From positions 1 through 30,860 of IMG/VR virus record IMGVR_UViG_3300020411_001573: DNA of 30,860 bases. One strand, written 5' to 3'. Every line of letters begins with the position of its first letter. Position 1 is the stretch's first letter. Origin of the DNA: a virus. Position numbers and translations under genes: made by a program. The notes beneath the pieces were generated by a model that was not told where the DNA came from, made no database searches, and saw only the letters and a list, made by a program, of their open reading frames with translations. Shown here in pieces: positions 993-26,603 of the stretch.

Positions 993-1325
993 CTAACTGA
1001 TTAATTTTATAAACTCCTCAATTTCTAAAACCGCATAAGTTTTACTTCTGTTTCTTTTAAATATCAATACTGGAGTAGAATCGTTAGCATTTTCTTCCGC
1101 CTGTTCTAATGAACTCCATATGTTTAATTTCTCTTGATTTTTACATTCGATTGAATATGGTATAAGTTTACGAGCAGCCGGTGATAATTTGATATCTTCA
1201 CCTGAATCTCCCATTACTGCAGAACGAATATCATCTGGTTCTAAAGTATCGAAAGTTTCGAGAAGAATATCTCGGACTTTATTTTGTAGTCGTTTACCCT
1301 TGTTTTTCGCTGAACGAGTTTTCAT
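993..1325 (-). CDS. PD-(D/E)XK-like small nuclease
   Basis: This 110-aa protein has the layout of small phage nucleases or resolvases: a basic N-terminus (MKTRSAKNKGKRLQNKVRD), an acidic pair E43-D44 and a strand ending ECK at 60-62. Together these resemble the catalytic E/D...(D/E)xK motif, and Q75 lies on the following helix. It probably cuts branched or foreign DNA during phage replication, but the substrate cannot be read from the sequence. No Shine-Dalgarno site is visible. An AT-rich promoter-like box lies only a few bases upstream, so the transcript may be nearly leaderless. Its 3' end overlaps the open frame of the primase, which lies in the -1 frame relative to this gene. Confidence 0.65.
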   Translation of the reverse strand: MKTRSAKNKGKRLQNKVRDILLETFDTLEPDDIRSAVMGDSGEDIKLSPAARKLIPYSIECKNQEKLNIWSSLEQAEENANDSTPVLIFKRNRSKTYAVLEIEEFIKLIS

Positions 1326-1327
1326 AA

Positions 1328-1345
1328 CTATATATAAATATAACC
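1328..1345. promoter_or_regulatory. AT-rich near-palindromic promoter-like box, copy 1
   Basis: The plus strand reads CTATATATAAATATAACC and the minus strand contains TATATTTATATATAG. The core is shared with boxes at about 13057-13069 and 25318-25331. The minus-strand TATATT hexamer would place transcription start about 5 bases before the ATG at 1325. No -35 hexamer is visible. The plus strand contains TATAAATA, the T4 late-promoter consensus, but no plus-strand gene follows here. Confidence 0.25.
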
Positions 1346-1358
1346 TAAATTTCCCAAA

Positions 1359-1769
1359 TTAAAATTTATTTTTCCAAAATCTACGATATTCCTTTTTTGC
1401 CCATTTTTCGGCTTCTATCTCAAATTTATTATCATTATAGTGGTGTTTACCTTTACCAACTTGATAATTCATTTCCCATTCATAATCTAATATATAGTTT
1501 TTCTTACCTAATCTCTTAGCATCCATTGCATGTTTGATTTCATGTAATACTGATATCACAAATTCTGATTTTTTTGAGTAATTTGTTCTTATTTTGATAA
1601 TATTTCTATGAACATCATAATCACCCTTCATTGAATCATCTTTATATTGTGTTGTTTTAATTTTTACTCTTGGTGGGATTTTTGATTTATAGTAATTTAT
1701 TATTTCTTGTGCCATAAATACAAAATCTTCCCTTTCCTGTATTAAATAAATTTCTTTTAATGTAATCAT
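1359..1769 (-). CDS. HExxH zinc metallopeptidase-like protein
   Basis: This 136-aa protein carries a zincin signature, H76-E-I-K-H80, in the helix SVLHEIKHAMDA. A downstream acidic helix with E117 and E119 could supply the third zinc ligand. Length and layout resemble small SprT- or ImmA-like metallopeptidases, but the family cannot be fixed by eye and no substrate is evident. Its ATG overlaps the stop of the PAP2 gene (ATGA), so the two are translationally coupled. Its N-terminus (MITLKEIYLIQE) resembles that of the PAP2 protein (MIKLQELLGIKK), possibly a shared targeting peptide. A processing or head-associated protease is an inference. Confidence 0.65.
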   Translation of the reverse strand: MITLKEIYLIQEREDFVFMAQEIINYYKSKIPPRVKIKTTQYKDDSMKGDYDVHRNIIKIRTNYSKKSEFVISVLHEIKHAMDAKRLGKKNYILDYEWEMNYQVGKGKHHYNDNKFEIEAEKWAKKEYRRFWKNKF

Positions 1770-2398
1770 TTTAATCCCGCATATAGAACTTTCGCTAATT
1801 CTTCCCCAAAGAATTTATCACTTGGATAATGAGCCTTTGCTATAATTCTTGAATGTGCTATTTCCTCTCCAAGTTTCCTATATTCTTTTCCATTTTTTGG
1901 GTCATAGGAAGTTAAAATTTCAGCAACCAAATAACCTTGTGTGGCGTGCCCACTTGGATAACTTGGTGTTTTCATACTTGCAATTGTAGTTCCATTTAAA
2001 TCAATACCATAGAATTCGGCTACTTGATATGGTCTTGGACGATTATAATGATACTTCATTTTCATAATATATTTAGCACTTTCTTTTATAACTTCTTCTA
2101 AATAAGTTAAATTAATACTAACTTTATTTTTTTCTACTAAGGGCTTAAAACTTTCAAATACTTCATCTCGTTTTTTAACTAAATCTTCATCTGTTTTAAG
2201 TTTTGATAAATAATTTAATTCTTTTAATGTATTCTTAGAATCATTATCTGGTTTATGAGTAAATCCTAAACTATATGGTAATGATATATCTTCATGAAAA
2301 TGTTTTACCGACATACTCATTTTTTTCTTATGTTTAGGTTTTATAGATTCACTATAAACCATTTTCTTAATTCCTAATAACTCTTGTAATTTAATCAT
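1766..2398 (-). CDS. PAP2-superfamily phosphatase
   Basis: All three catalytic motifs of the PAP2/class A acid phosphatase superfamily are present and in order: K113-x6-R120-P121, P148-S-G-H151, and S183-R-x5-H190-x3-D194. The enzyme should hydrolyse phosphate esters through a phospho-His intermediate; possible substrates are nucleotides or isoprenoid/lipid phosphates. There is no signal peptide or transmembrane helix, so it is predicted to be soluble and either cytoplasmic or packaged. AGGAG lies about 9 bases before the ATG at 2398. The N-terminal dozen residues resemble those of the neighbouring metallopeptidase. A phosphatase of this kind is unusual in a T4-like replication neighbourhood. 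Confidence 0.85.
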   Translation of the reverse strand: MIKLQELLGIKKMVYSESIKPKHKKKMSMSVKHFHEDISLPYSLGFTHKPDNDSKNTLKELNYLSKLKTDEDLVKKRDEVFESFKPLVEKNKVSINLTYLEEVIKESAKYIMKMKYHYNRPRPYQVAEFYGIDLNGTTIASMKTPSYPSGHATQGYLVAEILTSYDPKNGKEYRKLGEEIAHSRIIAKAHYPSDKFFGEELAKVLYAGLK

Positions 2399-2410
2399 TA
2401 TAACTAACTC

Positions 2411-2551
2411 CTATCTAAACTTTGGATATTGTTTGGTTGGATTCTTAGCTTTCCATTTCTTGTGTTGTTTTGCAGTTCTACCTTCTCGTGCCCATTTGGC
2501 ATTTAATTTTTGTCTTAATTGTTTTCTACTTTTTGCTGCTCTGTTTGGCAT
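2411..2551 (-). CDS. Small highly basic protein (46 aa)
   Basis: The short open frame begins MPNRAAKSRKQLRQKLN and ends PTKQYPKFR. It contains many Lys and Arg, several aromatic residues and almost no acidic residues. Its ATG lies one base after the stop codon of the coiled-coil gene upstream, so it is probably translated by coupling. Nucleic-acid binding is a reasonable guess from composition alone; I do not recognise a family. About 10 bases separate its stop from the PAP2 gene's leader. Confidence 0.6.
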   Translation of the reverse strand: MPNRAAKSRKQLRQKLNAKWAREGRTAKQHKKWKAKNPTKQYPKFR

Positions 2552-2552
2552 C

Positions 2553-3272
2553 TTATTTCCAATCCCATATCTTAAATAAGTTATATGTTACTCCAAATCC
2601 CCAAATTGGTTCTGTTAATCCTGTTTCACTATTATAAGTGATTCCTAACATAGGCCCAACTGAAATTTGGTTTTTTGGTGGTTTCACTCTATAAGTATCA
2701 CTTACACCACCTTTAAGTGTTACTCCATAAAATTGTCTATCTGGGTTTATTGCCCTAAATTCATACTTACCAACATTTTCAATTATTGGTGTTCCTAAAG
2801 AAATACTTCCATCAAAATCAACATCGGTTCCTGAATCAACAATTGTATTATTTTTAATTCTTAATCCACTTCTACCAAACAATCGTATATAATTATCTTG
2901 TGAACCAAATTCTCGTTCAAATGGAACTATTGCACTTCGTACATCATAGACATCTAACTTCATTGTATTTAATGAATCAATAAGATTTTGAACTCGTTGT
3001 TCATATTCTTTTTCCCAACGAATTCTTTCATAATACTCAGTTTTTATTTTACTGATTTCAGTATCTTGAGTATCATTATCTATCTGTAATCTTCTTACAA
3101 CCGAAGTTAAACTATCTATTGTTTCCTTATTATCTTGAATAAGTTGTTCTTGTCTTTCACTATCCTTTACCAAGAAATCATATTCTTGTTTTGCATAATA
3201 ATACCTTATCGTAAAGATAGATAAAACAAAAATAACATTCAGTGCAATACCCAATAAGGTACTTTTACTCAT
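2553..3272 (-). CDS. Membrane-anchored coiled-coil protein, spanin-like architecture
   Basis: The 239-aa protein has one N-terminal membrane helix (about residues 6-23). A long charged coiled coil follows (about 28-110), then a beta-rich C-terminal part ending in strands with alternating hydrophobic and Gly residues (ISVGPMLGITYN, IWGFGVTYNLFKIW). This order (inner-membrane anchor, periplasmic rod, C-terminal domain able to meet the outer membrane) is the architecture of phage spanins and of some coiled-coil proteins in phages of Bacteroidota. It is the last gene of the exported-protein run and is followed one base later by the small basic gene. A lysis role is inferred from architecture only; a structural or export-related role is also possible. 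Confidence 0.5.
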   Translation of the reverse strand: MSKSTLLGIALNVIFVLSIFTIRYYYAKQEYDFLVKDSERQEQLIQDNKETIDSLTSVVRRLQIDNDTQDTEISKIKTEYYERIRWEKEYEQRVQNLIDSLNTMKLDVYDVRSAIVPFEREFGSQDNYIRLFGRSGLRIKNNTIVDSGTDVDFDGSISLGTPIIENVGKYEFRAINPDRQFYGVTLKGGVSDTYRVKPPKNQISVGPMLGITYNSETGLTEPIWGFGVTYNLFKIWDWK

Positions 3273-3285
3273 AAGTTAATCCTTA

Positions 3286-3816
3286 CTATTTTAAATTTTT
3301 GGTTGCGGTGTCAATTGCTTGTCTAACTGCACCACCTAATTCAGTTCTATTAAATGGAATATCATCTGAAATTTGTAATCCAGCAGCTGATATTCTTGTA
3401 GCAATTTCACCCTGTCCTCTGGAAGTTTTTACTCTACCAGTTTGATTATCTTTTATAGATATTACCATATTCACCTGAGTTTTAGAATTTCTACGATTAA
3501 ATAATCCTACAATACTAAATGCTTCATTTGGTCTACCGATATAAACAACTTCCGCAGATACAACAAAATTAGCATTATCATCATCTACTAATATATATCT
3601 TGAATTAGAAAATGATTCTTCTAAAAGTTGACGAATACCTAATGTTACTCTATCATCTTTTATACCTGTATTTTCATCAACCTTTACAAACTCAGAAATT
3701 TTTAATGTTGGTTGGATTAAATCTTCACCTACTATTGCAGGTTGTGGTAAATCTTGTCCACGAACTAACCCAAACATTAAAAAACTGAATAATATTACTT
3801 TCATTGTTGTTTTCAT
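3286..3816 (-). CDS. CsgG-domain exported protein, short form
   Basis: The 176-aa protein has a signal peptide (MKTTMKVILFSFLMFGLVRG, then QDLPQP). The rest resembles the periplasmic alpha/beta domain of the CsgG family: ISEFVKVDE, the LGIRQLLEESF helix, then RYILVDDDNANFVVSAEVVYIG, and a terminal helix GGAVRQAIDTATKNL. It has no Cys after the signal peptide, so it is not a lipoprotein, and it is too short to contain the whole CsgG pore fold. It has an AGGAG site 6 bases before the ATG. It lies two genes downstream of the lipoprotein CsgG homologue, which suggests partners in one complex. The function is inferred from family resemblance. Confidence 0.65.
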   Translation of the reverse strand: MKTTMKVILFSFLMFGLVRGQDLPQPAIVGEDLIQPTLKISEFVKVDENTGIKDDRVTLGIRQLLEESFSNSRYILVDDDNANFVVSAEVVYIGRPNEAFSIVGLFNRRNSKTQVNMVISIKDNQTGRVKTSRGQGEIATRISAAGLQISDDIPFNRTELGGAVRQAIDTATKNLK

Positions 3817-3825
3817 TTTGTTCTC

Positions 3826-4821
3826 CTAAAAATAAGTTCCAAACATTATACTGAAACTTTTGTCTCTCTCACCATAGTCATTAACTATAGTATTATATCC
3901 CATTGATACTCCAACATTCAATACAAATGCTTGTCCAACTTTCCAATCAACTGATATGGTCGGAAAGAGTATTATGGGACTCTTTAATAATAAATATTGA
4001 TTTCCTTCAGAATTACCCTCATAATATCGAAATAATGTATAAGCAATATAATTAGAAAATGTAACTTTTGTTCCATTAAAATTAAATGGAAATTGTTGTC
4101 CATAAACTACTGATATATTTCCAAAGTTAAATTTACTAACATTACCATATGAACCAGTAAGAACAAGTGCCTCTGTATTTTTCTTTTGTAATGCCTTTGC
4201 ATATGAGGCAGATGCTAACCAATCCCAACCCTCAAATGTTTTATAAGTTAATACACTTCCATTTACTTGAACATTTTGTTTTTTTGCCTTAAATTTAAAT
4301 CCTTGGCCATAGGTTAATGAACCCTTTCTAAAATCATCAGTAAAATTAAAATTACCATCGTGCCTTCTTGTTCCATCAAAACTTTCTGCTGTATAAACAC
4401 TATTAAAGGCAGTAACCCACCTATCGTTATTTGTTCTTGATGTAGAACGAATTGCGTAATTTATTTGTTGTGGTTCGGATGATATATCCTCATCTGATTT
4501 ACTGAATTGTTCACTAACATTACTTGCTATAACTGAAGATAAAACCTCTTCTGCAACTCTTACTGCACATGGAAATAAATCCTCAAAATCTTTATATACA
4601 CTCTGTGCCCAAGCTTCTAATTCACCATTAATAACTTGTTCGAATGTAAAATATCTTGTTTTATTATAATAGGTAACCCAGAATCCACGACCATCTGAGT
4701 CACCAAAATTATAAACTGAACTTACAACATTTTGTTCACATGGGTCTATGTAATTATAAAAAAATGATTGGGCGGAAACACTACTCCAAAGAGCCAATAA
4801 TACTATTAATTTCCGAAACAT
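3826..4821 (-). CDS. Exported protein with predicted outer-membrane beta-barrel
   Basis: The 331-aa protein has a signal peptide (LIVLLALWSSVSA, then QSFF). The mature N-terminal 100 residues contain IDPC (about 26-29), a segment FTFEQVINGELEAWA and LFPCAVRVAEEVLSS. The two cysteines could form a disulfide. The rest alternates polar and hydrophobic residues, with many Gly, Tyr and Phe and a C-terminal Phe (IMFGTYF), as in outer-membrane barrels. The start overlaps the CsgG gene's end region (TAAAATGAATG), implying coupling. In curli systems CsgG works with the exported CsgF; whether this protein plays a similar part cannot be told, and I do not recognise its family. Confidence 0.5.
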   Translation of the reverse strand: MFRKLIVLLALWSSVSAQSFFYNYIDPCEQNVVSSVYNFGDSDGRGFWVTYYNKTRYFTFEQVINGELEAWAQSVYKDFEDLFPCAVRVAEEVLSSVIASNVSEQFSKSDEDISSEPQQINYAIRSTSRTNNDRWVTAFNSVYTAESFDGTRRHDGNFNFTDDFRKGSLTYGQGFKFKAKKQNVQVNGSVLTYKTFEGWDWLASASYAKALQKKNTEALVLTGSYGNVSKFNFGNISVVYGQQFPFNFNGTKVTFSNYIAYTLFRYYEGNSEGNQYLLLKSPIILFPTISVDWKVGQAFVLNVGVSMGYNTIVNDYGERDKSFSIMFGTYF

Positions 4822-4826
4822 TCATT

Positions 4827-5468
4827 TTACCAACCTTTTCTATCGATTGCCTTTATTACATTAACAACTGCTGTTTCCATTGCTTTGTTTGAAGCAGAAC
4901 TTAAAGAACTTTGATTCCACTGCATATTTGGATTTTTTAGAAATCCAGAACCTACAGTCGATGCTCTTCCTTGTCCACTACCAACTACATATTGTGTGTT
5001 TTCTAAGTTAACTAACTTAACTTGAATACCAACAATAGTTTCATTAGCTGTTTGGATTTTACCACCTTTGATATCTTCAGTAAGGTTTACTGCAAAATCA
5101 TAAATGGTAACATATCCCCAATATTTAGCTTTATCTATTTTAGCGTTGTTTGCTTTTAAATCATTTAACATTGCTAATTGATTATCTCTATCAGCCTCAA
5201 TTAAATTAAATCTACCAACATAAGATACTACATTCTGTAGTTCTTGTGTTAGTCCAAATGCAACTCTTTTTTCTGCCAATTCAGGATATCTATCTTCAAC
5301 ATCTTTATTGAATTTTACTTCAACAATCTTTAGTCCATCTACTTTTGTAATCTCCACCTCATCCAATGATTTTTGTTTTTCATATTCACCAACATATTGT
5401 TCAGTTGATACTGAAGCGGCACATGACATAAAAACCATTGCAAACAATATTGAGAATAGTTTGTTCAT
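4827..5468 (-). CDS. csgG: CsgG-like curli secretion lipoprotein
   Basis: The 213-aa protein begins with a lipoprotein signal (LFSILFAMVFMSC, Cys17 as the likely lipidated residue). CsgG-type features follow: RVAFGLTQELQNVV, a strand/helix with GRFNLIEADRDNQLAMLNDL, a central AKYWGYVTIYDFAVNL strand, VQVKLVNLENTQ-type strands, and a C-terminal helix KAMETAVVNVIKAI. CsgG forms the nonameric outer-membrane pore that exports curli subunits. At 213 residues it is somewhat shorter than typical CsgG. CsgG-like genes are known from some marine T4-like phages. The family assignment is good; export of a specific substrate is inference. AGGAG lies 7 bases before the start. Confidence 0.7.
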   Translation of the reverse strand: MNKLFSILFAMVFMSCAASVSTEQYVGEYEKQKSLDEVEITKVDGLKIVEVKFNKDVEDRYPELAEKRVAFGLTQELQNVVSYVGRFNLIEADRDNQLAMLNDLKANNAKIDKAKYWGYVTIYDFAVNLTEDIKGGKIQTANETIVGIQVKLVNLENTQYVVGSGQGRASTVGSGFLKNPNMQWNQSSLSSASNKAMETAVVNVIKAIDRKGW

Positions 5469-5477
5469 TCGTCTCTC

Positions 5478-5873
5478 CTATTTTTTATCGCCTCTATCCC
5501 ATCCATAAGGTCGTTTTTTATCATGTCCCTTACGATGAGATTTTTTAGCGTATTCGTGTCCTATCCAAAAAGAAATTCCACCAACAACTACATAACTTAA
5601 AACTCTATGTTTTTTTGTTGGTTTTTTAACTTCATATCTTTTATGGTCTAATGCTCTCATGTGAGCTCTTTTATGTGCTGCTTCGAATTTTCTCCATTCA
5701 GCATCTTGAGCTCCCATCCACACCTTTTGTCCCCAAGAAAGTTTATTCATCTTTTCTTGAGCAAGATTTTGTCTCATTTCTCTTTGTTCTTGTTTAGTAA
5801 TTTCTTTATCGGTTTCTGTTTGTTGTCCAAATAAAGGAACCATTAAACATATCATAAATACTATCTTTTTCAT
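5478..5873 (-). CDS. Exported or membrane basic protein, unknown
   Basis: The 131-aa protein has a signal peptide (KKIVFMICLMVPLFG, then QQTETDKE) and a charged helical stretch rich in Gln, Glu and Arg. A hydrophobic segment (VLSYVVVGGISFWIGHEYA, about residues 91-109) follows, and then a strongly basic tail. It therefore probably sits in an envelope membrane with a basic end. No family is recognised. The gene lies between the small coiled-coil membrane protein and CsgG, with AGGAG four bases before the ATG, and is part of the same transcription run. Confidence 0.6.
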   Translation of the reverse strand: MKKIVFMICLMVPLFGQQTETDKEITKQEQREMRQNLAQEKMNKLSWGQKVWMGAQDAEWRKFEAAHKRAHMRALDHKRYEVKKPTKKHRVLSYVVVGGISFWIGHEYAKKSHRKGHDKKRPYGWDRGDKK

Positions 5874-5886
5874 AGTACTCCTTTCC

Positions 5887-6267
5887 CTATCTTAAATCAG
5901 ATAGTGGGTCTTTTAGTAATTTCTCCAATCGTTTAATCTCATCTTGTAATTTATCAATCTCATTTTCAAGTTTGATAATATCACCATCATAAGATTTAAC
6001 TTTTGGTGTTTTTAATCCATCAACTTTCTCACGAAGATATTTAAAATCTTCATCATACTTATTGAATTTTTCTGTTACGATTTCTATATCAGAAGCTTCT
6101 GCAAATCCTTGAACTACTTCTTCCAACCCATCAATACGGCCAGTAAAACTATACCAACCAGCAATGACGGTAGAAAGAAAAGTAACAATAGCAATAATAT
6201 TATTAATTGATACTTTGAATCCTTTTCCTTTAACTTCTTCAATAGCTTGTTCTATATCCTTTGCCAT
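5887..6267 (-). CDS. Small membrane coiled-coil protein
   Basis: The 126-aa protein has a single membrane helix at about residues 22-41 (INNIIAIVTFLSTVIAGWYSF). A long heptad-like helix follows to the end, with the last 40 residues strongly coiled coil (IIKLENEIDKLQDEIKRLE). The layout resembles XhlA-type haemolysin/holin accessory proteins and also simple scaffolding proteins. AGGAG lies 7 bases before the ATG. It sits directly downstream of the PorV/Q-like barrel gene and is part of the envelope block. Function is unknown; the holin-accessory reading is only one option. Confidence 0.55.
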   Translation of the reverse strand: MAKDIEQAIEEVKGKGFKVSINNIIAIVTFLSTVIAGWYSFTGRIDGLEEVVQGFAEASDIEIVTEKFNKYDEDFKYLREKVDGLKTPKVKSYDGDIIKLENEIDKLQDEIKRLEKLLKDPLSDLR

Positions 6268-6284
6268 AACTTATCTCCTATTTA

Positions 6285-7166
6285 TTATATCTTTACATTT
6301 ATAGTAAGTTGAAAGGTGTTACTTAAAGGATGAATTTCATCACCATAAATATACCCTACACCTATTAAATATCTATCATAATTGAAATCTAATCCAAGTG
6401 ATGGATAACTTAAATCGTGTGTATCATCTTTAAAGTATCCAAGTCTTACCTTCATTATATCTTTTATATTATAATCAACTCCCCATCCTGCAGTATAATA
6501 ACCATCATAAATATTATATTGTTCATATAATGTAAAATCTTTTAATGGAACACTAAGTCCAACATTTAAACTTGATGGTAATTCAGAGTCAAAATCATTA
6601 AACTTTGGTGCCAATCCCACATTTTGTATTGCAACATCTGCTTCAAGATTTAAGTTTCCTATTTTTAAATTTGGAAAAAAGAATCCTGCATCAATTACTA
6701 AACCAGTTGCCTTTTCGGTATGTAAACTATGATTTATAAGTTTCCCTTTAACACCAGCATATACTTTATCTCTTAATTGTGTTCCCCATCCTGCAGATAC
6801 TACAACTGAGTTTGGATTAAAATCTCCTAAGATAATTCCACTTTCATCTGAATAATTTTGTGAACCATAATCAAAATATAATAAATCAAATGACCATTGT
6901 TTGTATGAACCTTGAAGATAATTATATCCCATATCCTCAGTTATATTTTTCAACCAATCTACTCTTGTAAATCCAACATGACTTAATGTATCCAAATCAA
7001 ATGAATTACGAGCAGGATTTCTAAATACCAATGATTGGTTTCCTACACTTGCCTCATATGATGTTGGTGAAATAGTCAACATTCTATTTACTTGTGCAAA
7101 CAATTGACTACTCAATGATAATATTATCATTAATATTAAAAATATACCAAATTTATTCTTTTTCAT
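6285..7166 (-). CDS. PorV/PorQ-type outer-membrane beta-barrel
   Basis: The 293-aa protein has a signal peptide (FGIFLILMIILSLSSQLFA, then QVNRML). It begins with a segment typical of the PorV/PorQ/UPF0164 barrel family: LTISPTSYEASVGNQSLVFRNPA. It continues with repeated amphipathic strands (VVVSAGWGTQL, KVYAGVKGKLINH, VIDAGFFFP, VAIQNVGLAP, KVRLGYFKD, YLIGVGYIYG) and ends on an outward strand. In type IX secretion, PorV carries cargo with a C-terminal sorting domain from the translocon to the attachment complex, and PorQ with PorZ forms part of that complex. Here the gene follows a T9SS-type cargo and two mini membrane proteins with overlapping ATGA junctions, which points to joint function. 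The exact PorV/PorQ placement is uncertain. Confidence 0.65.
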   Translation of the reverse strand: MKKNKFGIFLILMIILSLSSQLFAQVNRMLTISPTSYEASVGNQSLVFRNPARNSFDLDTLSHVGFTRVDWLKNITEDMGYNYLQGSYKQWSFDLLYFDYGSQNYSDESGIILGDFNPNSVVVSAGWGTQLRDKVYAGVKGKLINHSLHTEKATGLVIDAGFFFPNLKIGNLNLEADVAIQNVGLAPKFNDFDSELPSSLNVGLSVPLKDFTLYEQYNIYDGYYTAGWGVDYNIKDIMKVRLGYFKDDTHDLSYPSLGLDFNYDRYLIGVGYIYGDEIHPLSNTFQLTINVKI

Positions 7167-7306
7167 TTTTCGAATCTCCTAACTATCCAAGCTATACCCA
7201 TAAACGTCCCAAAGAAAGCAACTAATTGGAACCAAAACCAACCAGTTAATACTAACACTTGAAATGCCAAAGGTAAGGTACTTATATACGCTTGTAGTGC
7301 ACTCAT
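7163..7306 (-). CDS. Mini membrane protein 2 (47 aa)
   Basis: The short frame begins MSALQAYISTLPLAFQVLV and carries an aromatic hydrophobic span (LVLTGWFWFQLVAFFGTFMGIAWIV) followed by the basic end RRFEK. It should be a one- or two-pass membrane protein. Its start overlaps the stop of mini protein 1 (ATGA) and its stop overlaps the ATG of the barrel gene (ATGA). The tight chain supports it as a real gene although it is very short. Confidence 0.6.
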   Translation of the reverse strand: MSALQAYISTLPLAFQVLVLTGWFWFQLVAFFGTFMGIAWIVRRFEK

Positions 7307-7407
7307 TTCTTTTCTACCTTCTCACTAACCCAAACGATGACGGATATTAATCCATACGCCGCTGGTATGCTTAAAATTATTATTGCTCCAAATAATATCT
7401 CACTCAT
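7303..7407 (-). CDS. Mini membrane protein 1 (34 aa)
   Basis: The frame reads MSEILFGAIIILSIPAAYG and then LISVIVWVSEKVEKK: one hydrophobic span with a charged C-terminus. The ATG shares a base with the TAA stop of the 879-aa secreted protein (TAATG), and its stop overlaps the next start (ATGA). Nothing else fills the 240-base gap between the two larger genes. It is probably a membrane peptide; no family is recognised. Confidence 0.55.
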   Translation of the reverse strand: MSEILFGAIIILSIPAAYGLISVIVWVSEKVEKK

Positions 7408-10046
7408 TATTTAATGACCGTGAATTTATTTGCTTTTATTTTTCTATCAGTCTGTAATACAAATACATAAACTCCAGGTTCTAATGTCTGATGTCCATCA
7501 TAAGTTGATACCTCAGAAAAGAATGAACTTGGTTGATTTGTAAATTCAAATGTATGTATTCCAGCATCTATTTCTTCATCTAACAATGTTCCAACATATT
7601 GTCCCATTGAATTTAAAATATAAAGTTTTACATTTTCTCGTTGGTCAAGATAAAATTGGAACTTAGTATTCTCTTTAAATGGATTTGGATAATTGTATGT
7701 TATATCATCATTATTTGGTTGTCCACCACCGAACGCCCAATATTTATTCCATACCATTACTTTACCATCTTTTCTATCCATTAATAAATCTTTACCACTT
7801 GGACTTCCTGCATTTTTCTTACCAACAAATTTAATTGGTGCTTCTGTCCATTCGGCATCTGGGAAATTAGCTTGGAAAATTAATTTCAATCCAACAATTT
7901 CTTTATTTATGAAATATTTTTCAGGTGCATTTCCTGGAGTATAATCCATACCACCAAATGAAACTCTTTGCCATCCATCTGCTCTTGCTTCATGAACATT
8001 CACATATGTCATCCAAGGCCCTGGCAATATATCTGTTTTCATATCTATGAATTTAAGTTCATCAGATTTAAATTCAATTTCAAATTCAAATCCTGCAACA
8101 TCTATTTCTTTAGATTCTTCAGGTTTAATTGTTAATGGAATTTCTATTTGGTCTCCACTTGAAACTCTGACCGTTGAATCTGCTGGTAATGTTAAGAAAA
8201 CATCAGGAGTAGTTTCTGCTATTTTATTTACCCAAGTATTAGGTGCATTACCATTACCCCATCTATAATAAGTTGTTCCATTTACATCAATATACCCATC
8301 AGCACCATTTCCTGGTTCATCAACTTTAGTTCCTGTAGTATTGATATCACCAGTAAAGAAGTATGCCCAATCAGGTAATGTATAATCAGGATTTGCATCA
8401 CTATTATATGTAGATGAACCCGCACCTATATTAACCTGTAAGGTATCTAATCCAGTTTGAATATCATTCATCAATGGATTTGTTACTTCTATTTGTCCAA
8501 ATGTTAAAGTTGTATCTTGGTCAAAATCATCATCCTCAAAGACAGTAAATTCATATTTTTGATTTCCCCAAGTTTCATACCAAGTATAATTAAATGGTTG
8601 ATTGTTTTCTTTTAATGTATCAATAGTTGACCAATTTTGTAATGTATCTCCATTTAAGTGAACATAAGTATCAAAAATTCCTGAAGTATATGCCCATATA
8701 AAATATGAATCATTTAATTGGAATACATCATCACCATCAACATCACCAATAAAATATTCTGTAGTGTTTAATGTATCATAAGTTGCTGGGTCTGCTTGCC
8801 ACTTACCACTTTGGAAATTAAATGAAGCAATAGCATCATTGATATTACTAATTGCATATCTATCAAGTGTATAAGATGTATGAGTTTCTATATCATCATC
8901 TTCATCTGGAGGATAAAAAGATACACGATAAACATTATTTCTTGGTAATTGAATATTAAAATATCCTCTATCATCGGTATAAGTTGAATCATAATAACTT
9001 ACTCCTAAAAATCCCTCATCTGGTATTTGATGGTCTGAAGTTGTTCCTTTTAAATCATATCTAAATGTTGAAGTATAATCACCAATAACATCATCAGAAT
9101 TATCTTCATCGGTATTACTTGAAGTATTTGTAACTGTCTCTATATTATACCAATTACTATAGTTACCTGGATTACTCTGGTCTAATTCAAATCTTATTTT
9201 CCAATATGGGAAAGTATTTTCTGCTCCCCTATCTACACCTTGAACATATCTGAAGTATCCCTCAACATCTACAAGTTCAGGGTGAAGTGTGATATCACCA
9301 CGAGCACCACCATCATAAGTTTGTTCCGTTCCATAATTTCCATCAATATAAACTTTGTAATCTAATAGATAATCATCACTTACATAAGTATAATATCCAC
9401 TTCCACCTTGATATAGTGTTGGAACTCTAAATGATTGTGGTTGGAAATTATCTACTACATCTTCTATTTTAAAATATAATTTTAATAATTGTGTTTGATT
9501 TCCATCACCATTTCCAAATGTATGTGTATTTCCATTATGAGATACCATTGTAATTCTTAACCAATCATAACGATTATTTGCTTGTGATATTTCACTATCA
9601 GCAGTTTGTAAAGAATCCACATATCCAATGTTTGAATAGTGAGTTACTTCATACGAGTAATGTGCGTTCGAACTTTCATCACCTTCAGTCCAACCTGATA
9701 TATAAGAACCCTTTAATACTTCTGTATCATCGTGGTCCCAATCAATTAAATCATTATCAAATACTAAATCTAATCTAAATGCAGTTACATCTGCATCATT
9801 ATCATCTAAGGTAACTTCCATTACCATAACTGAATCTCTCCAGGCATCAAAATTATTATTATATAATGCTGGATTATTTACATCATCAGCAAGATAAGTT
9901 TGTAGATTATGTGTGACATTATCTCTCCACCAAAAATCTGGTGTATCATATGTGTCAATTTGCATAACTCTTATGATAGGATTTTGAGCCTGAACAAAAC
10001 CCATAACCATTAAGAGCCAAAACATTTTCTGAAGCATAAGTTTCAC
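7407..10046 (-). CDS. Large secreted protein with T9SS-type C-terminal sorting domain
   Basis: The 879-aa protein starts with GTG, behind AGGAG 7 bases upstream. It has a signal peptide (residues 1-20, then QNPIIR). An N-terminal beta domain (about 75-195) looks cohesin-like. A dockerin-like calcium loop, GDVDGDDVFQLND, lies at 434-446, and a weaker one is near 566-590. A clear cohesin-like domain spans about 615-768 (DVAGFEFEIEFKSDELKF). The end (782-879) is a Por-type sorting domain: YNYPNPF, KLYILNSMGQYVGTL, LEPGVYVFVLQTD and KANKFTVIK. Such domains direct cargo through type IX secretion to the cell surface. No enzyme motif was seen. It heads an operon with a PorV/Q-like barrel. Adhesion or surface masking is plausible but inferred. 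Confidence 0.75.
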   Translation of the reverse strand: MKLMLQKMFWLLMVMGFVQAQNPIIRVMQIDTYDTPDFWWRDNVTHNLQTYLADDVNNPALYNNNFDAWRDSVMVMEVTLDDNDADVTAFRLDLVFDNDLIDWDHDDTEVLKGSYISGWTEGDESSNAHYSYEVTHYSNIGYVDSLQTADSEISQANNRYDWLRITMVSHNGNTHTFGNGDGNQTQLLKLYFKIEDVVDNFQPQSFRVPTLYQGGSGYYTYVSDDYLLDYKVYIDGNYGTEQTYDGGARGDITLHPELVDVEGYFRYVQGVDRGAENTFPYWKIRFELDQSNPGNYSNWYNIETVTNTSSNTDEDNSDDVIGDYTSTFRYDLKGTTSDHQIPDEGFLGVSYYDSTYTDDRGYFNIQLPRNNVYRVSFYPPDEDDDIETHTSYTLDRYAISNINDAIASFNFQSGKWQADPATYDTLNTTEYFIGDVDGDDVFQLNDSYFIWAYTSGIFDTYVHLNGDTLQNWSTIDTLKENNQPFNYTWYETWGNQKYEFTVFEDDDFDQDTTLTFGQIEVTNPLMNDIQTGLDTLQVNIGAGSSTYNSDANPDYTLPDWAYFFTGDINTTGTKVDEPGNGADGYIDVNGTTYYRWGNGNAPNTWVNKIAETTPDVFLTLPADSTVRVSSGDQIEIPLTIKPEESKEIDVAGFEFEIEFKSDELKFIDMKTDILPGPWMTYVNVHEARADGWQRVSFGGMDYTPGNAPEKYFINKEIVGLKLIFQANFPDAEWTEAPIKFVGKKNAGSPSGKDLLMDRKDGKVMVWNKYWAFGGGQPNNDDITYNYPNPFKENTKFQFYLDQRENVKLYILNSMGQYVGTLLDEEIDAGIHTFEFTNQPSSFFSEVSTYDGHQTLEPGVYVFVLQTDRKIKANKFTVIK

Positions 10047-10190: not shown

Positions 10191-11198
10191 TTATACATCA
10201 AATCTTACAACTATTGCGTTTTGTGCATTTGTAGTAAGTTTAATAGGTTTTCCTAATTTACCTATAACCAATAACTCACCTTTATCATTATAAAGACCGA
10301 CAGTTGTTACATAAGGTCTAAACTCTGAATGAGTTACAAAATTCTGTGCAGTATCTGTTGCATTATATGAAGATAAAAATGTTCCAATACCATTCTTATC
10401 TGGTTGGTCACCAGGTGGTAAGAAATTGGACATTGAAACAGTCCCTTCTGCAAGTGTAAGACTTCCACTTAATCCTGAAGTTACACTTTTGTTTGATGTT
10501 AGATTAAATTCGTTTGGTTCTGCCCTAACGATATATTCATATTCATAATGTGTTTGAGTTGATTTATATCTTAACTCATGTCCACCACCATCAGTTCCAG
10601 CGTTTACCAAAGAACCTGTATCTGTTATAATTAATAATCCATGTTGATAAATTGCATTACCAACTTGGGAACCACTTCCTTTTGTATTAGTTTTATCATA
10701 ATCAAAAGAACTTGATTTATATGCTGCAAAACTTGATGAAAAGTTTCCGAAATCATATAAATTACCATCACCATCATCTCGTATTTTAAATGTTTGTCCA
10801 CCTGTAGTTACATCTAACTTAATACTACCAGGTTTTATTTCTTCCCCAAATAATTCTTGTGGAATACTAAACACTCTTGCACTACCTTCTAAAACCCTCT
10901 TTTCTTTTTGTGGATTGTTTTTTCCAAAACTTCTGAATGGTTCATCATTCTCATAATACATTTGTTTTATCATGAAGTAATTTGGAATATCATAGTAAGT
11001 TCCATATTCGAAGGCACCTGTCATATAGTTTCCGAAACTTTGAGATGCCGCGGAACCAGTTTGAAAATTATAAATGGAACCACTAACTGCCTTAAGCACA
11101 ATATGCCCACTACCACTATCATTATTAGTTAGTAAGAAACTTTTAAAGGTTTTAAAAGGTTTGATTGACTTGTCTGATGGGTCAATGTTCTTTAACAT
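10191..11198 (-). CDS. Phage structural protein, paralogue A
   Basis: The 335-aa protein is beta-rich, with many Ser, Gly and Thr, as in tail or neck proteins. Its C-terminus, YVTTVGLYNDKGELLVIGKLGKPIKL, matches the end of the next upstream protein (YITQVGLYNDDNELLAVAKLSKPVLK) and shows that the two are paralogues. Its N-terminus (MLKNIDPSDKSIKPFKTFKS) differs. It is transcribed with the tail genes and is the last gene before the structured leader. I cannot assign a T4 counterpart; virion location is inferred from context. Confidence 0.65.
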   Translation of the reverse strand: MLKNIDPSDKSIKPFKTFKSFLLTNNDSGSGHIVLKAVSGSIYNFQTGSAASQSFGNYMTGAFEYGTYYDIPNYFMIKQMYYENDEPFRSFGKNNPQKEKRVLEGSARVFSIPQELFGEEIKPGSIKLDVTTGGQTFKIRDDGDGNLYDFGNFSSSFAAYKSSSFDYDKTNTKGSGSQVGNAIYQHGLLIITDTGSLVNAGTDGGGHELRYKSTQTHYEYEYIVRAEPNEFNLTSNKSVTSGLSGSLTLAEGTVSMSNFLPPGDQPDKNGIGTFLSSYNATDTAQNFVTHSEFRPYVTTVGLYNDKGELLVIGKLGKPIKLTTNAQNAIVVRFDV

Positions 11199-11207
11199 TG
11201 TTATCCC

Positions 11208-12239
11208 CTAAAAATCAAGTTTAACTTTTATTATAGCTTCTCTTGCGAAAGATTTAAGAACTGGTTTACTTAACTTAGCAACTGCTAAAAGTTCATTATC
11301 ATCATTGTAAAGTCCCACTTGTGTAATATACACTTTAGGGTCTTTAAAGAATGTAGTTTGAGTATAAGCTCCATCTGAACCCGTAAAGAAAGTTGGATTA
11401 GCACTATGATTATATTTTCTGTTATTTACTCTACAAAAATAATTTGTTGAACTAATTTCTTCTTCTCTACGAACTTGAAACTTCTTACCAGCAACTATTG
11501 CATCAAAGAACTTTCTTGGATTATCTGCAAACGCATCTGTATTTCTTCCTGATGCTAACATTTGATAATTATCAAGATGTGTAGCGTTTAAGATTATAAT
11601 TCCTAAATCTGGATAGAATAATCCTATACCACCACCTGTTTCAGAAGCTGCTGCTGTTTTAATTACACCTGTTCCAGTTTCTAATGAACCAGTAACAACA
11701 TTAAATACTCTACCACCTTCATTGACGGTTGGACTATTTGTTGCACCACTATCATCGATTAGTTTTAATGGTGTTTGAACACTACCACTTAATACTAATT
11801 CCCAATTACCTGGGTCAATCTTTTCTCTCATTCGTGCTCTATTAAAAGCGATGAAATAGAAATCAGGTGAACCACTTGGTGCACTTGTCATTGAAAACTT
11901 TTCAGTTTGTGGTGCCAAAACAACATTAGCAAATTGTCTATACATTGCTGCTGATTGTCTTCCACCAGTAGTTAGTTTGGTTGTATTACCTGCCGAACCA
12001 CTACCTTCAAAGTGTGCATATCCAATATCAAATTGTACTTCTGCTGTTGCAGAATATGATGAATCATTTACATCTTGATGATAAACACTTAAATGTGAAC
12101 CTGTTATACTTCCTGCTGCGGATTTAGTATAAAAGGAATTTAATGTTCCACTTCCACCACTAAAAATACCACTTGATACTTTAGTTCGTTGATTCTCAAC
12201 TACATCATTATCAAAATCGAATCTTGTAAATACTGACAT
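11208..12239 (-). CDS. Phage structural protein, paralogue B
   Basis: The 343-aa protein opens SVFTRFDFDNDVVENQRTKV, continues with a Ser/Gly-rich segment, then SPDFYFIAFNRARMREKIDPGNWELVLSG, a stretch that has a counterpart in paralogue A (ERVLEGSARVF... KPGSIKL). It ends with the shared TQVGLYNDDNELL motif. AGGAG lies 6 bases before the ATG. It probably forms part of the tail or baseplate, and the tandem copies imply a duplication followed by divergence. The exact role is unknown. Confidence 0.65.
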   Translation of the reverse strand: MSVFTRFDFDNDVVENQRTKVSSGIFSGGSGTLNSFYTKSAAGSITGSHLSVYHQDVNDSSYSATAEVQFDIGYAHFEGSGSAGNTTKLTTGGRQSAAMYRQFANVVLAPQTEKFSMTSAPSGSPDFYFIAFNRARMREKIDPGNWELVLSGSVQTPLKLIDDSGATNSPTVNEGGRVFNVVTGSLETGTGVIKTAAASETGGGIGLFYPDLGIIILNATHLDNYQMLASGRNTDAFADNPRKFFDAIVAGKKFQVRREEEISSTNYFCRVNNRKYNHSANPTFFTGSDGAYTQTTFFKDPKVYITQVGLYNDDNELLAVAKLSKPVLKSFAREAIIKVKLDF

Positions 12240-12249
12240 CTTCTACTCC

Positions 12250-13017
12250 TTATAATTTACTTGGGTCAGCTTTAACTTTAACTGAAACATTATATGTTGC
12301 TCCAGTAGCTAAACCAACTATGGTTATATTAGTATTAGTATCAGAAGTTACTGAACGAGATACAACATTTACTGATTTACCTGTAATTGTTATTGAACTC
12401 TTTCTTTCTTCTTCATTCAAGAATACTGGAGTTGTTGCTCCTGTATTAACTTGTAAATCTGCTATTAATTCTTCTTCCTTAATCACCTCATCAAAAATCC
12501 TTTGTAAACCAGGTCTGAATTGGTCTCGTTTAGCAAAAGCTCTTTTAGCTCTTTTTGGTGGTGACTCTGGTAATCTTTTCTTAGCAACAACTACTGGAGT
12601 TAGATTTGCTATAGTTGCATCATGTAAGATAAAACTATATCCAGCTTCAGCATCACTACCATTTCTTGTATTTGGTGTGATTGTTTGTGCAATACCAGGA
12701 CCATTAAATGTTAAAGAAGGAGATGGAACTTCCAAGATAGGAAGTTTCGCAGTATTTTTTGGAAGAGATACTAATTTAAATCTCATTACTTGATTCTCAT
12801 CAACAAATGCTTCTAATAAGGGCATGTTTTCTATTACACTCCCATAGTAATTTGAACCATTTGGATGTGCAGTATCCCATAAACGATAATCGATTTCATC
12901 ATCACTTAAAGCGAATTTAGTAATCTTGAATTCGTCTTGTCCTCTAGCTAACAATTCACGACCTTTCTTTGTTAGTACGGCGTCGACAGTTACACTTGTA
13001 TTGTTTAAAAATCCCAT
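12250..13017 (-). CDS. Tail/baseplate structural protein
   Basis: The 255-aa protein begins MGFLNNTSVTVDAVLTKKG, followed by RELLARGQDEFKITKFALSDDEIDYRLWD. This N-terminal style (a KKGRELLA helix and then KFALSDDE) recurs in structural proteins of marine T4-like phages as I recall them. A basic middle region (KRLPESPPKRAKRAFAKRDQ, about 147-166) is followed by a beta-rich tail with an Ig-like repeat of Thr and Val (TNITIVGLATGATYNVSVKVKA). AGGAG lies 6 bases before the ATG. A candidate promoter lies about 45-75 bases upstream. Its specific place in the tail cannot be read from the sequence. Confidence 0.65.
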   Translation of the reverse strand: MGFLNNTSVTVDAVLTKKGRELLARGQDEFKITKFALSDDEIDYRLWDTAHPNGSNYYGSVIENMPLLEAFVDENQVMRFKLVSLPKNTAKLPILEVPSPSLTFNGPGIAQTITPNTRNGSDAEAGYSFILHDATIANLTPVVVAKKRLPESPPKRAKRAFAKRDQFRPGLQRIFDEVIKEEELIADLQVNTGATTPVFLNEEERKSSITITGKSVNVVSRSVTSDTNTNITIVGLATGATYNVSVKVKADPSKL

Positions 13018-13063
13018 TTTTTACTCCTATTGATTGAACTTAGATGGAAAGTGTTCATATATA

Positions 13064-13092
13064 AATATAACAACATCAAATTTTCTACTCAA
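13064..13092 (-). promoter_or_regulatory. Candidate sigma70-like promoter upstream of tail genes
   Basis: The minus strand reads TTGAGT (13092-13087), 17 bases, then TATATT (13069-13064). The -35 matches four of six bases and the -10 five of six. It falls in the only gap (13018-13084) of the tail run, overlapping slightly the end of the 1624-aa gene, and would serve the genes from 13017 downstream. The plus strand of the same box reads ATATATAAATATAA, a T4-late-like sequence, so orientation is not certain. Confidence 0.4.
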
Positions 13093-16000
13093 CTATTAAT
13101 TTAGAATCACCTGGTTCTTTAGTTATTAATCGAGTTGGTGATGTTATAGTTACTTCAACTGGTTCCTTACCATCTATTGTATTTTCCTTTGTTAATTGTG
13201 TTTGTTTATAAAATAATCTAAATAATTTTGATTCATAGGCCATACTCTGATATTCTGCTGGTTCAAATGATGCACTATATTGATAATTTCCACCATATTG
13301 TGTATGAATCCCATATCCATTTGCATCAGAAACACTTAATGAACTTGTATAAAATTTTAATTTTATTTCATTATGTTCTGATAATCTTGAAGAACTTACA
13401 AATGGTTGAGTTGCCTCTTCAAATTCTGTTGTGGTTCCACCTAATGTTATACTTGCTGTTGCGTATAAACTTCCATAAGGACTTATATAATCTATTTCTT
13501 CTAACCTAACTAATGTAGGTAATCCAAGTGTTCCAAGTGAACCAGATTCTAAGTTATGAATATTAACCGCACCATTATACATTGGAAATTCTCCACTTGG
13601 TATAATTGTTCTATCATCGGAACCACTAATGAAGTTTGTCATCTTCAATCCATAATCAAAGTGTCCTGCATTTTCATAATATGTATTTTCAAGTTCTGGT
13701 AATTTACCAACAACTTCTTTATTTCTTTCTAATATATTTGGTTCAATTAATAAACCTAAATTTGTATTTGCCCTTGCAGGTATTAACTTTTCAAGTTGAG
13801 TCCAAATACTTGCATCAAAATAATCAATCAATCTCATATAATCCCAAAAGTTATTTGGTGAATTATATTTTTTAAAATAATTTCTTTGTTGTTGTTCTAA
13901 TCCACGATATTGGTATTTATATTGGTCTCTTGGGTCTCCGATATAATCATCAAAATTCATATCTGCTATACTATACATTATATCTTCATTGATAACATCT
14001 GCTGGTGAAAAATAAACTCCTAACTTATTACTATCAACTGGTGCAGTATCTTGTGATGATTTTTCTCTTCTAACATTATATGCTAATTGTCCATCTAATG
14101 AAGTATTCTCAATTCTAATCTTGGTTGCATTTCTTCTTGATGGGCCAAGATTAGGAACTTTCATTTCTTCTACATCAACTAAACTTCTATAATTATTACC
14201 ACCAAATTGTTGAGTACTTCCACTATAATCATAAGTTTGTGGATGTGCAATATTAGTAAGTGATGAAGTAGTTGCATAAGTAACATTATTATCTAATGGT
14301 ATTCTTAAAACTAAATTATCATAATGTGATTGTGTTGTATTACCATTATATGCTTTAGGTGCCCTTAAATGATTTTCAAATACACTCTGAGATAATGGTT
14401 CACTCCATAATCTGAATTCCATTAATGAACCACTAAATTGTGTTCCAAAGTTTGAACCATTACCACCAAGATAAATAAATCCACTTGAAGTAAATGCGGC
14501 GTTTAATGCGTTTCCTGCGGCCGCAACTCCACTATCAAAACTTTCACTTGTAGAATAAACAACTCTATTTCTTGTTGAATCATATTGTCTTGTTGTAAGT
14601 TCATAAGTTACATTTTGTGTAATTGAATCACTTGTTAAATCAACTCCACTTGCACTCTTTCTTGTTAACATTACACTCCACATTTCATCATTATAGAATG
14701 GTTGTTCAGAAGAAGTAATATATTGAATTCCAGTTGATGCACTTACACTAAATCTTAAATACCCCTTATTATCTGTATCTCCATTATCTTGTAATTGAAT
14801 TGCAAATTCATTTCCTTTTTGTACAATAACTTGGTCTTGTGATTTAGGACTTCTAAATCTAAATTCAATTGTTTCTGGTTTAATACCACTTGTTGAATCA
14901 TTTTGCCATTGTGATTCAACATATTCTTTTGATTTAAAATCTAATGCGTATGTAAACTTTCTTTTTATTTCATAACTAACTCTTTCATTTAAATCTGGTC
15001 CACCATATTCTCTAACTCTTAATATAGAACTTGGAACACCATAACAATTTAATAATCCTTTAATTGCTCTTGTGTTTCCTTTGTTCTTTAAGAAGAATGG
15101 TAAGTTAGCCAATAATCTTTTCCATATTTCTTCAGTAACTTCTTCTTGTGGTGATTCATATTTATCAGAACCATCGGATGCCTTACCTACCAAATATTCT
15201 GGAAGTATAATTAAATCATTACCATTAGTTACATCCATCCCTAAAGATTTAGCAACCTCACGAACAATATCTTTTGAAATACCCTCTGATAATTTATTTG
15301 AATGTTCATTAATATCTGTAAAGTGTCTTAGGTAAGTCCATATCTCATCAAATTGTTGTCCTATCATATCAACAAATTCTAAAAATACATTATTTTGAGT
15401 ATCAGTATTAACATGAAGTGGTAAATTATTTACTAACCTATTAGTATTGTTATCATCAAATAATGATGCACTTGTTATAACATTATTATACCAAGTAGTT
15501 GAAGTTGAACCACTCGTATGTGCTAATGTATATGGTGAAGTTGAATTTTCTTTTGGCCATGTTGCTTGATACCACTCACCAACTGAACTTGAAACATAAG
15601 AACCACTTTGATAATATAAATAATGTTCATATGGGTCAAAACTATTTATCACTTGTTCTTTCTTTACATCAAAATTATTCATTGATGTTGCAGAACTTGT
15701 AACATTAGTTAAGGCAAAACTTTCAGAAGTATAGTATTCAATTAATTCTACTTTATCTCTAAAGTTTCTAACTCTTTGTTCTGCCGAACCAAAATGAACA
15801 AAATTTCCAAATCCAAAATCTGTAGTTTCTTCACCTATTGTATCTGTTCTTTTTGCATAATCTACATTAACTTGAACATCTAATAAACTACCAGAAAGAA
15901 CTTTATTTTTAATATCTTGTTGTGTAGTTGAATCAGTTCCAATTAAATCATTATGTGTTCTATATTGTGTTCCTCTAAAATTAATTGGATTATCAACTGA

Positions 16001-25697: not shown

Positions 25698-26603
25698 TTA
25701 CCAAAATTTATTCTTGGTTTCTATAATATATTCGTGAAAATTATCTTTGAACTTACCTAATCGTTTTGCAGTTTCTTTTGGATTACCCTTTGAAAACATT
25801 AAAACATTTTGATGTGATTTAGGAACTTTTCTACTTGTGTTCATAAATTTTTCAGCTCTCATACCAGCAGTTGCAGGTTCTTGTAATAAAATCATTTCAT
25901 TATAATAAGACATTCCAGCATCTTCAAATGCCTGAATAGTATCTGGAACTAAACCAACATAAGAATCTTTTTCTCTTACCTCACCAACAACAAATACAGC
26001 AAAGGAATTATCTTCTAATTTATTACAAGATTTATGAATAATTTCTCTATATTGTTTTAAGAAAGTTTTATAATCCATATTGGAAATATCCTCTGGGTTA
26101 TCTGAATATTGTTCAAGATTATAATAAGGTGGACAAGAAAATAAAAAATTATATTTACCTTTTAACTTATCTACATTTATGGAATTATCATGTATCCAAT
26201 TTGGTATATGAGTATCACATATTTTTTTACCTTGAATAATATTATGTTCTATTTGATTTTTAGATAAATCAATACCAGTATAATTTCTTTTTAATTTACT
26301 TGCAACAATTCCTCTAACTGAACCACCTGCAAAACAATCTAAGATTTTATCATCTTCTTTTGTAAACCATCTATAAATACATTCACATAAAACGGGGTCA
26401 AATATTGAAGTTCTATTTTGTCCCATTCTATTCATCAAATCACTAAGACTTAAAAGATTTTCTTCTCTACCTAATTCACTTTCTATACCAAGTTCTTTCC
26501 ATAATTTCTTTCGTCTTTTCCATCTACCAGATTTTATATCAAGAACACTAATAGGTGGAATTACGAATACTTGTTCAAGTCTACCTGACCTCTCTTTTAC
26601 CAT
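25698..26603 (-). CDS. DNA methyltransferase (CPPY-motif)
   Basis: The 301-aa protein is an S-adenosylmethionine-dependent DNA methylase. The SAM loop is LDCFAGGSVRG (88-98) with acidic GIDLS at about 110-114. The catalytic motif is SCPPYYNLEQYSD (156-168), of the beta-class D/N/S-PPY/F type, here CPPY. The N-terminal FVIPPISVLDIKSGRWKRRKKLW is typical of phage methylases of this family. It should add a methyl group to an amino nitrogen of A or C. No cognate restriction enzyme is seen, so it may protect phage DNA. The ATG directly follows the gp55-like stop with no SD. It shares PPYxNxEQYS with the larger methylase at 28595. Confidence 0.85.
   Translation of the reverse strand: MVKERSGRLEQVFVIPPISVLDIKSGRWKRRKKLWKELGIESELGREENLLSLSDLMNRMGQNRTSIFDPVLCECIYRWFTKEDDKILDCFAGGSVRGIVASKLKRNYTGIDLSKNQIEHNIIQGKKICDTHIPNWIHDNSINVDKLKGKYNFLFSCPPYYNLEQYSDNPEDISNMDYKTFLKQYREIIHKSCNKLEDNSFAVFVVGEVREKDSYVGLVPDTIQAFEDAGMSYYNEMILLQEPATAGMRAEKFMNTSRKVPKSHQNVLMFSKGNPKETAKRLGKFKDNFHEYIIETKNKFW

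Follow-up and report, generated by a model that had tools for sequence, protein, structure and literature searches.

Phages are already known to carry genes for T9SS cargo, as described for Cryophage (PMC7468147) and for crAss-BACON gut phage contigs (PMC6949934). In the parts of these two reports available to us, the phage genes end in type A sorting domains, as in the locus described here, and their products are thought to use the secretion system of the host; superinfection exclusion is suggested for the Cryophage cargo (PMC7468147). Unlike here, the cargos in those parts are enzymes, PA14 or BACON proteins, and no carrier barrel is described. Dedicated carriers are known for type B cargos, which are served by PorP/SprF proteins (PMC12618676). 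The genes for type B cargo and outer-membrane carrier adjoin, and the carrier can hold its cargo on the cell surface (PMC12618676, PMC9143113). These pairs were our working analogy, although the sorting domain of the present locus is of type A and its barrel belongs to the PorV family. Parts of an outer-membrane secretion system have also been found in marine myoviruses as the curli pores CsgGF (PMC9004378), a likeness to our phage that does not extend to the system itself.

Here we analysed a viral locus in which a candidate T9SS cargo gene is followed by a gene for a PorV-family barrel. The author of an earlier note on this DNA was not aware of any description of such a pairing in a phage. 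Phage-encoded cargo alone is already published, in the reports above; the literature searched held no account of a cargo accompanied by a carrier of its own.

Results

The window analysed is a stretch of 30,860 nucleotides, positions 1 to 30,860 of IMG/VR record IMGVR_UViG_3300020411_001573. Its viral genes include a gp6-type baseplate wedge and a DNA primase. The gp6 protein matched phrog_6 (3e-21), was 41-48% identical to gp6 of the Flavobacterium phage immuto and the Microcystis phage Mel-JY01, and had syntenic neighbours; the tail module is likewise syntenic with both phages. By these genes, the contig is a T4-type phage (myovirus) related to the cultured immuto, in agreement with the T4-like label of the earlier note.

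The cargo, two mini-ORFs and the barrel were all recovered as minus-strand ORFs at the coordinates first proposed, with the peptides quoted from them, and the overlaps reported between successive ORFs were confirmed as being of 1 or 4 bases. The cargo ORF (7407-10046) is followed by a 34-aa single-helix mini membrane protein (7303-7407), which overlaps the cargo stop by 1 base and is conserved in several relatives, and by a 47-aa mini membrane protein (7163-7306) with 4-base overlaps with its neighbours. The latter was seen in this window only and had no relative in the related loci. The barrel (6285-7166) comes next. Further along the same strand lie a 126-aa single-helix and coiled-coil protein (5887-6267), present after the barrel in the relatives that extend that far (75-98% identical), a 131-aa secreted protein (...PLFG/QQTE, the slash marking the predicted cleavage site; 5478-5873) found in part of the family, a 213-aa lipoprotein (4827-5468) with a weak LpoB-like signal (17.4 bits), a 331-aa secreted protein, probably of the outer membrane (3826-4821), a 176-aa secreted periplasmic protein (3286-3816) and a 239-aa protein with an N-terminal helix, a coiled coil and a weak spanin-like match (2553-3272). 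The lipoprotein was the most conserved of the cassette families aligned (76-92%). We had considered the 213-aa and 176-aa proteins as members of the CsgG family; this was not supported, and Pfam, NCBIfam and PDB profile searches returned no CsgG match for either. Scans of the sequence for repeats and promoters added nothing.

The 213-aa, 331-aa and 176-aa proteins have homologues in immuto (vB_FspM_immuto, MW353176), where a homologous cassette (10527-16409) contains a cohesin and a sorting domain (45.4 bits). In both phages a cargo with these domains stands beside lipoprotein, outer-membrane and periplasmic genes, and the tail modules are similar. The immuto cassette differs in that its cargo-like domains are divided among three ORFs, one of them a C-type lectin, and in that it lies far from the tail genes. 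A PorV-family barrel was looked for in immuto and was absent.

The cargo is 879 aa long and starts with GTG. Its signal peptide (...GFVQA/QNPII) is predicted to precede an N-terminal beta region, followed by a dockerin-like loop, a cohesin-like domain and, at the C-terminus, a T9SS type A sorting domain. Its N-terminus is hydrophobic and, in relatives, our own scorer placed a signal-peptidase-type site followed by Gln. The Cohesin match (residues 626-672) scored 21.5 bits, just below the cut-off. The sorting domain spans residues 782-879 (7410-7703, minus strand), of which residues 786-876 matched TIGR04183 with 22.9 bits (E 6e-5; cut-off 23). The same model matched 9 of 9 aligned relatives (best E 7.5e-7) and gave 24-39 bits, above the cut-off, for relatives in longer records; 14 related records exceeded the cut-off, and the sole match below it was a fragment in record G003. 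Judged by these scores, the cargo family as a whole passes TIGR04183. The earlier description of a secreted protein with a sorting-type C-terminus is therefore upheld by the signal peptide and by the matches of all nine aligned relatives. The window's own domain is borderline, at 0.1 bit under the curated cut-off. A near-invariant lysine close to the C-terminus is present; K871, K874 and K879 are invariant across 8 aligned sorting domains, and nearly all other cargos have a tail of the KFTVxK type.

AlphaFold2 modelling of the whole cargo gave a result (pLDDT 40) too poor for a fold search or a judgement of function. In the 409 Bacteroidota genomes searched, the only relative of the cargo body lay on a phage contig within a MAG, and an origin from a bacterial surface protein found no support in this sample. 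PHROGs held no family for cargo or barrel, and a tblastn search of 50,697 phage records matched neither.

The barrel has 293 aa, a signal peptide (...QLFA/QVNR) and 14 predicted strands. The earlier note had called it PorV/PorQ-type, and at the level of the family this is right: it scored 108.5 bits (E 5e-31) against NF033709 PorV_fam (cut-off 90), a model matched by 7 of 7 relatives, although scores in a wider set of relatives straddle the cut-off. Neither specific name could be given. The barrel reached 63.5 bits with the PorV equivalog NF033710 (cut-off 250) and 73.2 bits with the PorQ equivalog NF033711 (cut-off 220), and the phage barrels formed a clade of their own (support 100/100), neither PorV nor PorQ and weakly sister to PorV. 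PorP/SprF type B carriers gave no match up to E 1 in the NCBIfam or Pfam lists.

The AlphaFold2 model of the barrel (pLDDT 69) has 14 strands and is FadL-like. A PDB sequence search with the phage-barrel profile returned a single match, PorV 6h3i (7.4e-7), and the best fold match was also PorV (8gl6_F/6h3i_F, E 1.5e-12), although fold alone does not separate PorV from FadL (Z 25.2 vs 24.4). Conservation of the barrel peaks in WLKNITEDM (71-79) and LLYFDYGSQ (95-103), and these segments align with Asn87 and Phe115 of PorV, two residues that cryo-EM shows holding the conserved lysine of the cargo through their backbone. The WLKNITEDM segment, in the first extracellular loop, has the length common to PorV and is four residues longer than in PorQ and other family members. 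The phage barrel thus resembles Flavobacterium johnsoniae PorV (PDB 8gl6/6h3i; PMC10994853) in best sequence and fold match, first-loop length and aligned cargo-contact sites; it differs in being about 100 residues shorter, in lacking the large insertion that PorV sequences have after strand 9 and before strand 10, and in its separate clade. It shares family and similar length with PorQ, from which it differs in the first loop.

A search of IMG/VR with the single barrel sequence found nothing; an alignment query retrieved 30 loci, and in 30/30 the cargo stood immediately upstream. Conversely, all 54 complete phage cargos (54/54) had a sorting domain, and the barrel was present for 43/43 complete cargos with at least 1.1 kb of downstream sequence. 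The linked loci span 34 barrel clusters at 90% identity. Median dN/dS was 0.15 in the barrel gene and 0.20 in the cargo gene; by this measure, both are under purifying selection. The gene order proposed earlier is therefore fixed in related phage contigs; absence of the pair from all relatives, or want of a significant sorting-domain or barrel match, which the earlier note took as counting against its reading, was not seen. Most gp6 relatives had neither sorting domain nor barrel, mostly due to short contigs. Both were absent also from an 82-kb record with 52% gp6 identity (G032) and from the complete Mel-JY01, which confines the trait to part of the gp6-related group.

Gln followed the predicted cleavage site at 29 of 54 placed sites against a background of 4.1%, a count that excludes the lipoprotein and is rough, since our scorer can be a few residues off at some sites. 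The Bacteroidetes average is 71% (PMC5837995). In the barrel this residue, Q25, is invariant (35/35). The sites obey the Bacteroidetes Q-rule and so indicate Bacteroidetes as the host phylum; by this signature, the marine virus probably infects Bacteroidota.

Discussion

With a cargo tagged for the host T9SS next to a relative of its carrier, the virus may dress infected cells in a surface protein of its own. On the sequence evidence, we consider it reasonably probable that the two genes are a T9SS cargo/carrier pair, by which a phage protein is placed on infected cells through the host's own translocon. Cargo and barrel would be exported by the host Sec system, and the barrel would be inserted into the outer membrane by the host BAM. 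The sorting domain would enter the SprA translocon of the host; the related phage records examined contained no SprA. At this translocon the phage barrel would dock in place of host PorV and grip the sorting domain with its conserved first extracellular loop. It would then take the cargo to the surface, where the cargo would remain bound or be handed on, and the infected cell would display a phage-made cohesin/dockerin-like binding protein, likely for superinfection block, receptor masking or altered adhesion. The earlier note had suggested that such a protein could affect adhesion, superinfection or particle release. More tentatively, and with some doubt, we propose that the barrel might supplant PorV at the SprA gate and keep the cargo anchored on the infected cell. 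No other type A cargo/carrier pair would then be known to work apart from the standard PorV/PorU route, and none had been known from a virus.

Immuto has the cargo and no PorV-family barrel, so some cargos of this kind can do without a carrier. This also suits a different and rather unlikely explanation, that the cargo leaves via host PorV while the barrel competes with or inhibits host T9SS traffic, masks a receptor or is an unrelated FadL-like channel. The missing PorV-specific insertion and the nearly equal fold likeness to FadL point the same way, but the perfect cargo-barrel linkage and the peak of conservation at PorV cargo-contact sites argue against it. We also judged it unlikely that the 9-kb block as a whole serves egress (lysis) or breaching of the envelope. 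In that reading the outer membrane would be weakened by the barrel together with the lipoprotein, the other outer-membrane protein and the spanin-like protein, and the cargo would be an exported helper. Phage-encoded CsgGF pores have been proposed as lysis timers (PMC9004378), and the block does hold, besides further secreted proteins, a weakly LpoB-like lipoprotein and a spanin-like coiled coil; yet the LpoB and spanin matches are weak, neither endolysin nor holin was identified in the block, and no part in lysis is known for the type A sorting domain.

The position of the cargo right after the tail module, a place taken in immuto by genes for tail fibre and spike, raises the question of a virion adhesin or tail fibre with an incidental signal peptide and sorting domain. 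This is improbable, as the signal peptide has a Q-rule site, no complete cargo lacks the sorting domain, and in immuto the cargo and the tail module are some 70 kb apart, with the cargo beside the lipoprotein, outer-membrane and periplasmic homologues. PorV-family proteins are common in Bacteroidota, and the locus might stem from bacterial DNA that was wrongly assembled or binned as viral; this is practically refuted by many independent contigs that keep the block between the same phage tail and primase genes, and the one cargo-body relative among the Bacteroidota genomes was itself on a phage contig.

If the cargo/carrier pair is real, phages bring a T9SS component of their own, beyond borrowing the system for cargo, and the infected surface becomes phage territory. 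The phage barrel would be a compact, naturally occurring carrier with which to dissect cargo choice by PorV-family barrels, and the cargo half can be tested now in immuto, with its cultured Flavobacterium host. It would also suggest that many unassigned PorV-family barrels of Bacteroidota are cargo-specific carriers. Among bacterial family members other than PorV and PorQ, 11 of 20 adjoin an ORF with sorting-domain features, compared with 0 of 10 for PorQ, and a cargo with its own barrel thus looks like a natural arrangement.

Results

The window, a complete IMG/VR virus record of 30,860 bases, is a phage sequence, with phage matches that include a gp6-like baseplate wedge and a primase. Nearly all of its genes lie on the minus strand, and its tail genes are syntenic with those of the cultured Flavobacterium phage vB_FspM_immuto (immuto) and the Microcystis phage Mel-JY01. 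An envelope-gene block (993-10046) is flanked by the tail module and the DNA primase. Mel-JY01 carries a GIY-YIG gene after its counterpart of the last tail gene of the window (10191-11198), and the counterpart of the window primase (85-927) comes next. The envelope block thus occupies this tail-gene/primase junction. Its first four genes encode a secreted cargo of 879 aa (7407-10046), mini membrane ORFs of 34 and 47 aa, and an outer-membrane barrel of 293 aa (6285-7166), joined successively by 1- or 4-base overlaps.

The last 98 residues of the cargo scored 22.9 bits against the T9SS type A sorting domain TIGR04183 (cut-off 23) and all nine aligned relatives matched, in line with an earlier note that had read this C-terminus as a T9SS sorting signal. 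The cargo also contains a cohesin-like region and loops of the pattern GDVDGDD..LND, read as dockerin-like, with matches mostly below or near cut-offs. These features suggest a role in binding, not catalysis.

The same note had described the barrel as PorV/PorQ-type. This stood at family level (108.5 bits, cut-off 90) but not for either member, since the score was below both the PorV (63.5 against 250) and the PorQ (73.2 against 220) equivalog cut-offs. The AlphaFold2 model has 14 strands (pLDDT 69), and its top two Foldseek matches (E 1.5e-12 and 3.4e-11) were both to PorV in T9SS complexes. VIA-align gave a tie between PorV (Z 25.2) and FadL (Z 24.4), and PorV was the only match when PDB was searched with a sequence profile of phage barrels. 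When placed in a tree alongside PorV, PorQ and unassigned Bacteroidota members of the family, the phage barrels formed a single clade (support 100/100), weakly sister to PorV (93/84). They lack the large stretch that PorV has inserted between strands 9 and 10. Their two best-conserved segments, residues 71-79 and 95-103, align to the PorV segments containing Asn87 and Phe115. The main-chain carbonyls of these two PorV residues bond the nearly invariant lysine of RemZ, a cargo domain (PMC10994853). The first loop is as long as in PorV, whereas PorQ and the unassigned members are four residues shorter there. Judging from this alignment, the phage barrel may retain the PorV-type cargo-gripping loop.

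Cargo and barrel are a fixed pair. Searching IMG/VR with an alignment of seven phage barrels yielded 30 loci, all 30 with the cargo immediately upstream; where loci extended far enough, the 126-aa gene lay downstream and gene order was kept on both sides. The reciprocal search from the cargo found 81 loci, in which the sorting domain was present in 54 of 54 cargos with a complete C-terminus and the barrel in 43 of 43 loci with at least 1.1 kb of downstream sequence, spanning 34 barrel clusters (90% identity). The pairing of cargo and barrel noted earlier in the window recurs in related phage contigs. Median dN/dS was 0.15 for the barrel and 0.20 for the cargo.

Such pairs look like a normal bacterial arrangement, since, of 20 bacterial loci with PorV-family barrels other than PorV and PorQ, 11 had a same-strand ORF with sorting-domain features within 300 bases. 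The corresponding counts were 0/10 for PorQ and 10/10 for PorV, where the neighbour is presumably porU, which itself has a sorting domain. Some bacterial genomes hold dozens of candidate non-PorV/non-PorQ barrels. In four bacterial clusters (L213, L215, L219 and L221), one ORF with sorting-domain features precedes two consecutive PorV-family barrels. Multiple family members and such clusters suggest unassigned cargo-specific carriers in bacteria. For type B cargos with PorP/SprF carriers, pairing of cargo and barrel genes has been demonstrated experimentally (PMC12618676; PMC9143113).

The best conserved of the aligned cassette families (76-92%) is a 213-aa lipoprotein (4827-5468) with only a weak LpoB-like signal. 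Its homologue in immuto (7e-24) lies in a cassette at 10527-16409 of MW353176 (L253), beside a row of three: a secreted C-type lectin protein, another secreted protein, and a 243-aa protein that combines a cohesin domain (36.6 bits) with a strong sorting domain (45.4 bits). A 103-aa membrane protein lies in between, and the lipoprotein gene is followed by homologues of the window's 331-aa and 176-aa genes; no PorV-family barrel was found in immuto. The cohesin-like region of the window cargo matches the 243-aa protein (1.1e-9). Since this homologue sits in an envelope cassette about 70 kb from the immuto tail module, the comparison favours grouping the cargo with the envelope genes over assigning it to the tail. 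With these three proteins in one row, immuto is a ready experimental system.

In Bacteroidetes, about 71% of signal peptidase substrates have Gln immediately after the cleavage site, which does not hold across the whole FCB group (PMC5837995). In five secreted families of the block, Gln occupied the predicted +1 position at 29 of the 54 sites that could be placed, against a background of 4.1%, and all 35 non-redundant barrel sequences kept Q25. A related phage contig carrying the cassette (NZWA01000008.1) is binned inside the GTDB Flavobacteriales MAG NAT55, which has SprA and PorV. Together with the Flavobacterium host of immuto, these observations make a Bacteroidota host with a T9SS likely. 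SprA was not found among 16 related virus records, possibly fragments; the translocon is therefore presumably supplied by the host.

Phage-encoded T9SS cargo is already known. Such a cargo has been described for Cryophage, with superinfection exclusion suggested (PMC7468147), and a gut-phage study places sorting domains close to BACON genes (PMC6949934). In the open-access literature searched, we found no phage-encoded PorV-family barrel described, either by itself or together with a cargo.

Other features of the window

A PAP2-type phosphatase (1766-2398; Pfam 3e-11), which many relatives share, lies downstream of the cassette; its substrate could be lipid A or undecaprenyl phosphate. Residues 286-395 of the 1624-aa tail protein (13085-17959) form a Hint/Vint domain (Pfam Vint, 2.5e-19), which might be an insert that splices itself out of this phage structural protein or serves in its autoprocessing. 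Two genes (25698-26603 and 28595-30217) match DNA methyltransferase families (phrog_498 and phrog_12517).
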